Assembly: GCA_028283655.1 (NCBI GenBank)
Contig: JAPWKE010000001.1
Location: forward strand, 213,082 to 277,081
Length of the DNA: 64,000 bases
Direction of reading: 5' to 3'
From: Acidobacteriaceae bacterium
Lineage (GTDB): Bacteria > Acidobacteriota > Terriglobia > Terriglobales > Acidobacteriaceae
In this document: in pieces, positions 32,336 through 34,382 of the stretch
Layout: each line of letters starts with the position of its first letter
Numbering within the stretch: the stretch's first letter is position 1
The notes under the pieces: generated by a model
Told to the model about the DNA's origin: nothing
The model's input: only the letters and a program-made list of their open reading frames with translations
The model's database searches: none
Program-made: the position numbers and the translations under genes

Positions 32336-32671
32336 GGAAAACGTGACCGATTGGCGTCGGCTGGTAGTTCACAGGCGACCCCGCAACACATCGCCAGACG
32401 ACTCCTGCTCTGAATTCAGGAACTTACTGAGAGGTCAGACGGAGCCTTGAGATGGAGGAAGAGATGAGCTCCAAAGTAATCATGCAGTTACTTCAGTAAT
32501 GTTTACTAAAGCATAAATAGATAAGTACTGGAAAACGTTGGACTTAGCCTCTACATGCACCTTACGTTGTAGACATCTGGTTTGTCCAGAGAAACTTTCA
32601 AGCAGTACCGAACTACCAAATTTAGCAGCTTTAGTAACCAATTTCTTTACCGATCTCTAAGGAGTTTCCCC
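32336..32671. other. AT-rich leader region of the peptide array
   Basis: These 336 bp, visibly AT-richer than the surroundings, separate rnr from the first peptide gene and should hold the array promoter. A TTACTTCAGTAA palindrome near 32488 is followed by AT-rich sequence (GCATAAATAG). A 15-codon ORF (32452-32499) has GGAG 7 nt upstream. I could not assign -35/-10 boxes with confidence. Confidence 0.5.
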
Positions 32672-32857
32672 ATGCAGAAGTTCACCGTTCGCGCTCTTGT
32701 CCTGTCCCTCGCTGTTGCCGGCGCCGTCGCCACCACCGTTTCCTCGCAGGCTGCAACCCGCAACCCGCTCACGACCAAGACTGCAGTTTTGACGGACACC
32801 TCTGTCCCGGCTCCCCTGTGCAACCCACGTGGTGTTTCGAAGTGCGGCCTCGACTAA
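32672..32857 (+). CDS. Small secreted peptide, array copy 1 (61 aa)
   Basis: The peptide has a canonical Sec signal sequence: MQKFTVR then a 16-residue hydrophobic core, with cleavage expected after SSQA. A mature region of about 34 residues ends in PAPLCNPRGVSKCGLD, with two cysteines separated by seven residues. The start is the ATG preceded by AAGGAG 8 nt upstream, matching copies 2 and 3; an upstream TTG in frame is not needed. It differs from copies 2 and 3 mainly in signal-sequence codons and a one-residue insertion. No family is recognised. A secreted signal, bacteriocin or matrix peptide is speculation. Confidence 0.8.
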   Translation: MQKFTVRALVLSLAVAGAVATTVSSQAATRNPLTTKTAVLTDTSVPAPLCNPRGVSKCGLD

Positions 32858-32926
32858 TCCGCTGCCGCCTGTAAGTACCTGATTACTCGCTTCGACCATC
32901 CCTGTTCAGCCCTTTAGGAGTTTCCC

Positions 32927-33109
32927 ATGCAGAAGTTCACCGTTCGCACTCTCGTTCTCTCCCTCGCAGTAGCTGGCGCTGTCGCCACCACCGTGTCCTC
33001 GCAGGCTGCCACCCGCCGCCCGCTCTCGACCAAGATTGCTTTGACCGACACCTCTGTCCCGGCTCCCCTGTGCAACCCACGTGGTGTTTCGAAGTGCGGC
33101 CTCGACTAA
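32927..33109 (+). CDS. Small secreted peptide, array copy 2 (60 aa)
   Basis: The layout is the same as copy 1: signal peptide, then a mature region starting near ATRRPL. It has the conserved TDTSVPAP stretch and the LCNPRGVSKCGLD ending. AGGAG lies 6 nt before the ATG. The mature part carries net positive charge, which would suit an exported or membrane-active peptide. It encodes exactly the same protein as copy 3. Confidence 0.85.
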   Translation: MQKFTVRTLVLSLAVAGAVATTVSSQAATRRPLSTKIALTDTSVPAPLCNPRGVSKCGLD

Positions 33110-33179
33110 TCCGCTGCCGCCTGTAAGTACCTGATTACTCGATTCGACCATCCCTGTTCAGCCCTTTAGGAGTTTCCCC

Positions 33180-33362
33180 ATGCAGAAGTTCACCGTTCGC
33201 ACTCTCGTTCTCTCCCTCGCAGTAGCTGGCGCTGTCGCCACCACCGTGTCCTCGCAGGCTGCCACCCGCCGCCCGCTCTCGACCAAGATTGCTTTGACCG
33301 ACACCTCTGTTCCGGCTCCTCTGTGCAACCCACGTGGTGTTTCGAAGTGCGGCCTCGACTAA
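33180..33362 (+). CDS. Small secreted peptide, array copy 3 (60 aa)
   Basis: The protein is identical to copy 2, with two silent substitutions near the end of the gene. AGGAG lies 7 nt before the ATG. It is the last copy, and downstream sequence diverges right after the stop codon (TAATCCG). The next gene, a polytopic membrane protein, begins about 90 bp later on the same strand. Confidence 0.85.
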   Translation: MQKFTVRTLVLSLAVAGAVATTVSSQAATRRPLSTKIALTDTSVPAPLCNPRGVSKCGLD

Positions 33363-33452: not shown

Positions 33453-34382
33453 ATGTCTGCGAAATTCGCCCTTCAATATGCGCTGATTGTGCTGTCACTA
33501 TTGGGTTTGGTAGTGGCACTCTTGCTGCTTAAGAAGCGCCTCGTAAGTACATACCCGGCTCTTTTTTCATTGATTCTGCTCCGTGTGGCCACCTCGCTGG
33601 TTGGAGTGGGAATTCTGTATCACCGCAAAACTTTGCATTTGTCGCTCGAACTGGCATATCAAATCTACTTCGATTGGTATTGGTTCTCTGTCATTTCGCA
33701 GACTTTGCTTGAAGTTGCCATCATTTATGGTGCCTACCGCATTGCGATGAAACCGTTAGATGGGCTCAAACGGATAGGTAGCGTGATTTTTGCTTGGGTC
33801 GCCAGCGTTTGCATTCTATTGTCGCTTGCGGTCGCTCTCGGGCCGCACACACAGGGTGCTAGCTATTTCGCGACTTTGCTCGGCCAGATGCAGCAAGGTG
33901 TCAGTGTTCTCACCCTCTGCCTGCTGCTGTTTGTTTGCTTTGCCGCTCGTCCTCTTGGCTTGACCTATCGCAGCAGGGTTTTCGGCGTGATGCTGGGTAT
34001 GGGAATGGCTTCGACGAGTTCCTTGGTTATGTCAACCTGGTACTCGACGAAGGCTCTGCAGTCTGTTTATTCACCGGCTTTTCTCGTAGGTGCGCTATGC
34101 GGCCTGGCAACGTTAACCGTGTGGGCGACGTACTTTGCTCTGCCTGAGCAGGAACGCGCTCTGGTACTGCTTCCCACCACATCACCGTACTTCACCTGGA
34201 ACCGCATCTCAGAAGCCTTGGGAGACGAGCCTGGTCTGGTGGCCATCTCCGGCTTCCGCCCGGCGATGCTTGCTTCCGCGGAGTTGAAGGCGATGATCGT
34301 GGCGCAGAAGAGTCTCCAATCTGTTGCCGATGAACCGGCACAGGCTATGCTCGTTGACCGGATCGCGGTCGGCGCCAACTAA
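33453..34382 (+). CDS. Polytopic membrane protein, about 7 TM
   Basis: The family is not recognised with certainty; similar uncharacterised membrane proteins occur in Terriglobia. The 309-residue protein starts at ATG 33453 (GGAG 8 nt upstream; the GTG at 33444 overlaps that site). About seven hydrophobic helices span residues 5-220 (YALIVLSLLGLVVALLLL is the first), with charged loops between, then a soluble C-terminal tail of about 90 residues. It lies directly downstream of the secreted-peptide array on the same strand, so it could transport or sense those peptides. That is only positional inference. Confidence 0.7.
   Translation: MSAKFALQYALIVLSLLGLVVALLLLKKRLVSTYPALFSLILLRVATSLVGVGILYHRKTLHLSLELAYQIYFDWYWFSVISQTLLEVAIIYGAYRIAMKPLDGLKRIGSVIFAWVASVCILLSLAVALGPHTQGASYFATLLGQMQQGVSVLTLCLLLFVCFAARPLGLTYRSRVFGVMLGMGMASTSSLVMSTWYSTKALQSVYSPAFLVGALCGLATLTVWATYFALPEQERALVLLPTTSPYFTWNRISEALGDEPGLVAISGFRPAMLASAELKAMIVAQKSLQSVADEPAQAMLVDRIAVGAN

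Follow-up and report, generated by a model that had tools for sequence, protein, structure and literature searches.

The window, a stretch of 64,000 nucleotides from the genome of an Acidobacteriaceae bacterium, contains three precursor genes for small secreted peptides in tandem, a gene for a predicted seven-helix membrane protein behind them, and a conserved upstream region ahead of them (Table 1). The first-pass annotation covered only the region 32672-33362, which is half of the story: it omits the conserved upstream region (32487-32594) and overlooked the membrane gene (33453-34382), the constant partner of the peptide genes.

Table 1. Elements of the peptide and membrane-protein locus, in positions of the window
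Feature	Position	Strand	Remarks
Palindrome GTTACTTCAGTAAT, candidate operator	32487-32500	+	GTTAC-N4-GTAAC
Promoter-like sequence TTGGAC-N19-TACGTT	32538-32568	+	37 nt after the palindrome
Conserved leader element TTGTCCAGAGAAA	32582-32594	+	10-mer TGTCCAGAGA shared by 10 of 40 upstream regions
Precursor copy 1	32672-32857	+	61 aa; the last 18 residues are the unit SVPAPLCNPRGVSKCGLD at 32801-32854
Precursor copy 2	32927-33109	+	60 aa; unit at 33053-33106
Precursor copy 3	33180-33362	+	60 aa; protein identical to copy 2; unit at 33306-33359
Predicted seven-helix membrane protein, proposed receptor	33453-34382	+	309 aa; ATG behind CGGAG

The three tandem open reading frames are confirmed, each with an AGGAG site ahead of it, and TRF resolves the array into a period of 253 with 2.8 copies and 94% matches. 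Copies 2 and 3 differ at 2 of 183 nt and encode the same protein, copies 1 and 2 have 168 of 186 nt in common, and the spacers between the genes (69 and 70 nt) are near-identical. Each precursor ends in LCNPRGVSKCGLD, with a C-x7-C pair. Signal-peptide cleavage is likely at SSQA, a site picked by eye, and the part that follows it has a pI of 8.9-9.5 and a net charge of +2/+3, in line with the short cationic mature region proposed earlier. An assembly artefact is judged unlikely, since copy 1 is distinct from copies 2 and 3 and comparable arrays are found elsewhere, for instance six genes in G128, a genome in a single contig. For the membrane gene, the list of open reading frames begins at GTG 33444; the ATG at 33453, read by eye, is preferred.

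The peptide is of no recognised family, as had been supposed: searches of Pfam, NCBIfam and PDB sequences gave nothing credible. DUF6520 (PF20130) was rejected, its scores of 15.5 and 13.3 bits lying below the Pfam gathering score of 25.4; at E ≤ 0.1 it matches 4 of 23 peptide members (best 0.023). Likewise rejected was an RNA family, the sole match under an E-value threshold being mir-890 (E 0.62), far under its gathering score. A scan of genome contigs with the single peptide sequence confirmed no relative, the peptide being too short and divergent for such a method. Queried with the one peptide, 36 of 200 genomes from the family give a match at E ≤ 0.01; a profile built from 23 peptides (A1) matches 21 of the 28 genomes of the window's genus and, family-wide, 184 of 398, spread over 27 of 79 genera. 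Two to six matches each are present in 52 of these 184 genomes, the tandem arrangement being confirmed in part of them. The genome of the window itself is matched three times, by this array only, and once more at E 0.36; the fourth match contains an internal stop and was taken as chance.

The precursors share a common layout, with an M-K-like start followed by V/I-R, a hydrophobic Sec-type signal, a variable linker and a C-terminal PxPxCxP-x(n)-C unit. The invariant columns of the profile are A20, P47, C49, P51 and C57, and the two cysteines are spaced by 4 to 8 residues (36 units compared). The units vary by species: the 11 that were compared from the window's genus are all distinct, and LCNPRGVSKCGLD of the window corresponds to MCSPKSASLCGID in G140. 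Granulicella, Edaphobacter, Terriglobus and Bryocella all have records with the close subfamily, and several of these are culture-collection strains. At one locus of G361 (L291), a precursor carries an additional C-terminal cysteine-rich stretch, CAPQPCCTCGCS, and the neighbouring precursor differs.

Homologous arrays near similar membrane genes, which the first-pass annotation had said would count in favour of its reading, were looked for and found. Forty loci were compared, comprising the window and 39 regions around peptide matches that were hand-picked for spread over the genera. Clustering of their open reading frames yields one membrane protein of ~300 residues at 37 of 40 loci, and a profile made from those 37 sequences finds the membrane gene at all 40, always downstream of the peptide and on its strand; the three loci not among its sources (L092, L096 and L123) are thus recovered by the profile. 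The other neighbours depend on the genus: RNase R accompanies the pair at 11 loci within the genus of the window, and other genera have GyrB-like (9 loci) and IF-3-like (8 loci) flanks, named by eye, so that the pair persists as its surroundings vary. In another 14 genomes, chosen for several peptide matches or for belonging to genus g34 and searched over short stretches only, the membrane gene lies near the peptide in 13, the exception (G118) having weak peptide matches only. No constant third gene or output gene accompanies the membrane gene across the 40 loci, and in the genome of the window the membrane gene is single-copy.

Two to six tandem precursor genes are present in 15 of the 40 loci. 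Within genus g34 the tandem genes occur in one species (G097), and in others the units are repeated inside a single precursor (four in G181, five in G239, three each in G250 and G265). Gene duplication and unit repetition therefore look like alternative routes to more of one short peptide, and the earlier idea that the copies serve a high dosage gains support from this alternation.

Among equal-length pairs inside the 15 arrays (sums over pairs, which are non-independent), pN/pS is 0.02 for the unit (10 nonsynonymous and 158 synonymous differences), 0.31 for the linker (133 and 159) and 0.22 for the signal (154 and 286). Mean amino-acid identity within arrays is 0.97 for the unit and 0.89 for the rest (Wilcoxon p 0.013); the corresponding difference at the nucleotide level is not significant (p 0.09), and two of the 15 arrays (L098 and L101) are opposite, the unit being less conserved than the remainder. 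In the four g34 precursors with internal repeats, pairwise comparison of the units gives 81 synonymous and 0 nonsynonymous differences; these units were chosen by an exact amino-acid pattern that excludes nonsynonymous differences by construction, but every unit recognised by eye in these precursors fits it. The bias towards synonymous differences among copies and units indicates that the unit is a translated product, constant within a genome and yet divergent between species, and such strong purifying selection within arrays makes the array more than chance.

The membrane protein falls in no family that could be found. Pfam searches with 37 members return scattered weak matches to 8 families, never in more than two members per family (the best, Lambda_Bor at 0.00027, in one member only), NCBIfam has no match at 0.01, and PDB sequences give nothing credible, the JNK kinase matches (best E 0.008) being taken as chance. 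An AF2 model from the 37 sequences (pLDDT 85.7, pTM 0.79) consists of seven long helices, with a less certain C-terminal part, and a second model, of a distant member (pLDDT 75), likewise has seven. Positive charge is concentrated in loops 1 and 5 and in the tail, which argues for an N-out/C-in topology; the arrangement would be that of the GPCR or microbial rhodopsin fold, as a prediction only. Against the PDB, neither model has a Foldseek match at E ≤ 0.001, and no receptor is significant. The best match of the main model is a chitin synthase (E 0.1), its six best rows are all chitin synthases or a zinc transporter, and GPCRs make up 29 of its best 50; the distant-member model has a GRP receptor as its best match (E 0.017) and GPCRs in 46 of its best 50 rows. 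This abundance of GPCRs among weak matches is suggestive only, and other seven-helix bundles may give the like.

The inner half of the protein, assigned by hand from the AF2 model, is more conserved than the outer half (mean entropy 1.57 vs 2.27, p 3e-10), and its conserved inner loops and tail read LPTTSP...WN.I..ALGD. The invariant residues are G, G, W, F, G, G, Y and W. No His or Asp stands in the invariant or nearly invariant columns, and C155, the sole near-invariant Cys, is missing from the invariant list of the distant homologues; the lack of a conserved His leaves no obvious enzyme site. No kinase or other output domain was found in the protein, which has a short tail only. Unit and membrane-protein distances correlate (n 36), with values of 0.216 for the outer half given the inner (permutation p 0.001) and 0.196 for the inner half given the outer (p 0.0095). 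The inner half thus adds about as much as the outer, and no specific coevolution of ligand and pocket emerges.

The family extends well beyond the main peptide subfamily. The profile of the membrane protein has matches in 43 of the 396 genomes sampled from the phylum, all of the same family and distant homologues included, and hhalign aligns the main and distant sets, which have no sequence in common, at 99.8% (E 2e-27). Of 297 genomes searched with a profile of 18 distant members, 41 match, six of them outside the family; five of these six were examined, and two have a peptide (L259 and L263). For a search that started from the membrane protein, 40 regions (20 from each list of membrane-profile matches) with 42 membrane ORFs were taken, and a peptide was defined by rule as a signal-like ORF of 35-160 aa that is preceded by an RBS and whose end falls at most 160 nt ahead of, or 60 nt beyond, the start of the open frame. 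Such an ORF precedes 23 of the 42 membrane ORFs vs 4 of 175 other ORFs (Fisher p 8e-16) and 0 of 7 multi-helix control ORFs, a small number. In L166, L169, L265 and L266 a peptide outside the rule was recognised by eye. Nineteen of the 42 have no peptide by rule, and about 15 have none by eye either (L154, L156, L172, L173, L252, both ORFs of L255, L256, L257, L258, L260, L261, L262, L264 and the second ORF of L170).

The distant peptides are very diverse, many being Pro-rich and a good part ending in a PxPxCxP..C-like sequence. Repeated units recur: the L170 precursor contains five units of IPMSPIPVGR, that of L253 seven of AMSPxSPHPVPPP, that of L251 three imperfect units, and that of L166, with a provisional frame start, at least four of NMPVFPTPPAVK; L168 has four tandem precursor genes, one of them containing an N. 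Four of the five L170 units show 3 synonymous and 0 nonsynonymous differences and four of L166 no differences, and the seven of L253 show 18 synonymous and 12 nonsynonymous differences, all 12 from the first unit. The cysteine pair, which the first-pass annotation read as a sign of a disulfide-closed or otherwise modified peptide, is conserved in the main subfamily but is not general, as the peptides of the related pairs L170, L250, L253 and L265 lack it.

Several single loci of this set deserve mention. G050 has eight distant-profile matches (L159, L160 and L247-L252), and seven of the eight loci have their own, differing small secreted peptide. In L170 and L255 two membrane ORFs of the family stand in succession, in L255 with no peptide gene before either. 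L179 lies on a contig titled Verrucomicrobia bacterium Tous-C9LFEB and encodes a membrane-gene relative with 49% identity, possibly owing to a binning error or transfer. Palindromes of the TGTTC...GAACA type lie within ~300 nt upstream of the peptide gene in L161, L162, L164 and L165, and may belong to another regulator.

The upstream region of the main subfamily carries a conserved pattern. Of the 40 upstream regions (330 nt each), 21 contain GTTAC-N4-GTAAC with at most 1 mismatch, compared with 1.2% of shuffled sequences and about 1% of 1140 windows drawn at random. The promoter-like box WTRGAC-N17/19-TANNNT, a pattern defined after some of those same sequences had been inspected, follows the best palindrome by exactly 37 nt in 25 of 40 regions and by 35-37 nt in 29, and is absent from 10. 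The 10-mer TGTCCAGAGA is common to 10 of the regions, with a one-base variant in 7 more, and a 14-base piece of the leader is common only to the genome of the window and G140. Among 16 genomes chosen for carrying the module, the full palindrome-promoter pattern occurs once per genome in 14, each time directly upstream of precursors, and is absent from G095 and G312; the reversed control gives 0 in the 16. A single occurrence at the module suggests that a regulator serves mainly this locus and has been retained despite the locus moving, and the pattern offers a handle on that regulator. The palindrome alone was rejected as an entry to a regulon, as its sole other site in the genome of the window lies in an apparent coding stretch and the backward pattern gives three sites per strand. 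A generic promoter scan did not list the box at 32538-32568 and elsewhere returned one chance-level site only. Within 32538-32594, TGGAC of the -35 box is complementary to GTCCA of the leader, ~40 nt apart, as in several other loci; the pair could form a hairpin or a paired protein site.

These arrangements suggest a peptide signalling module, in which an exported peptide would be the signal and the seven-helix protein its receptor. We consider this reading probable, with much room for doubt. It draws on an exported unit, which stays the same inside a genome, is multiplied and diverges between species, and on the seven-helix protein beside it, conserved on the inside and variable on the outside; among the roles first proposed for the array, communication fits best. 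The precursor would be exported by Sec and lose its signal peptide, and further proteolysis would free about 15-18 C-terminal residues as the unit (PxPxCxP...CG), in the main subfamily probably closed by a disulfide. The dose would be set by gene copies or by unit repeats within one precursor. We infer that the adjoining seven-helix protein senses the unit, receiving it at its variable outer half, and that the conserved inner loops and tail would relay the signal to a partner in the cytoplasm whose gene lies elsewhere.

The most serious rival holds that the peptide is a Sec-exported antimicrobial, its dose raised by the array, and that the seven-helix protein protects the producer. Sec-dependent bacteriocins with an adjoining immunity gene exist, and the order of peptide gene and membrane gene, the multiplied peptide genes and the divergence between species all fit. 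However, with the peptide conserved in 184 of the family's 398 genomes and in 21 of the 28 from the genus, the distribution resembles a lasting trait more than a weapon of patchy occurrence, conservation in the membrane protein lies on the cytoplasmic side, the units are short and Pro-rich, and ~300 residues in seven helices are large for the immunity proteins of Sec-dependent bacteriocins. This explanation is unlikely on balance, while deserving serious weight.

It is rather more improbable that the membrane protein serves to process, close or export the peptide, in the manner of AgrB or an intramembrane protease, with the receptor elsewhere. The adjacency is constant and repeated units require cutting, but the Sec-type signal makes a dedicated exporter unnecessary, the residues expected of an enzyme come down to C155, which is not invariant in the distant set, and the very dissimilar peptides of the distant pairs would be odd substrates for one enzyme family. 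A secreted peptide that binds a metal or cofactor, taken up through the membrane protein, would be in keeping with the conserved cysteine pair of the main subfamily and with multi-copy production, and is very improbable given the homologous pairs that lack those cysteines. Least credible is a monitoring peptide of the SecM/MifM type that arrests its own translation and so controls that of the membrane gene behind it: a small signal-sequence ORF does precede that gene, the ends are Pro-rich with PPP in L103 and L253, and arrest peptides that combine a signal sequence with LPPP near the C-terminus have been described (PMC10987492), but the 15 loci with two to six complete precursors, besides internal repeated units, differ from one upstream ORF before a localisation gene, only the last of the tandem precursors could control the next gene, PPP is missing from most units, and the partner matches no known family and hence no protein-localisation gene.

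Signalling through the seven-helix protein remains the preferred reading, and neither the peptide nor the membrane protein falls in any family found. A wider proposal is more tentative, and we lean slightly against it: Acidobacteriota, among the commonest soil bacteria, may possess a new class of communication systems, in which Sec-secreted, often multi-unit Pro-rich pheromones act on stand-alone GPCR-like receptors without a kinase, in many radiated pairs. No description of a peptide communication system in this phylum was found in the open-access literature that was searched, and to our knowledge no stand-alone seven-helix receptor for secreted peptides is known in bacteria. If true, the proposal raises the question of how a receptor signals without a fused output domain. 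As the close subfamily is present in culture-collection strains, the system is testable with synthetic peptides and deletions.

Several known systems share parts of this design. 7TMR-DISM proteins and the LytS-type BtsS are likewise seven-helix bacterial membrane receptors. Sensors of both types are fused to output or extracellular domains, whereas the membrane protein described here is short-tailed only and matches no Pfam or NCBIfam model. AgrBD systems combine a short, ring-closed and species-specific peptide with a membrane partner encoded alongside, and here too a short species-specific peptide, possibly ring-closed, adjoins a membrane gene. By contrast, there is no match to an Agr family, no conserved Cys/His pair as in the AgrB-type endopeptidase, a Sec-type signal is present, and no histidine kinase lies beside the pair.

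In general logic, a peptide signal with an adjacent receptor is already known from the RRNPPA systems (Rap-Phr and kin) of the Bacillota, which appear to be the nearest analogue. In these systems a Sec-exported propeptide of 50-120 aa is encoded beside the receptor gene, the active peptide is mostly C-terminal, and a propeptide sometimes contains one to four pheromone repeats (PMC11343458). The signal-like N-terminus, the conserved C-terminal unit and the adjoining partner gene of the present module look alike at the sequence level. However, the RRNPPA peptide is re-imported and meets a cytoplasmic TPR-type receptor, whereas here the partner is predicted to be a membrane protein with seven helices and belongs to no Pfam family; the phylum is different, the cores carry a Cys pair or Pro-rich repeats, and whole genes are repeated in tandem.

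A parallel in design lies outside the bacteria. Yeast alpha-factor is cut from a secreted precursor with repeated peptide units, and its receptor Ste2 has seven helices with an N-out/C-in topology, as is predicted for the partner protein here. Ste2 (7ad3) does come up among the weak Foldseek matches, at rank 7 with E 0.3, which is not significant. The two systems have no detectable sequence relation, no G protein is involved here, and the peptide and membrane genes are adjacent in the genome. If the proposed class is real, it would be a prokaryotic counterpart, in design, of the alpha-factor/Ste2 pair.
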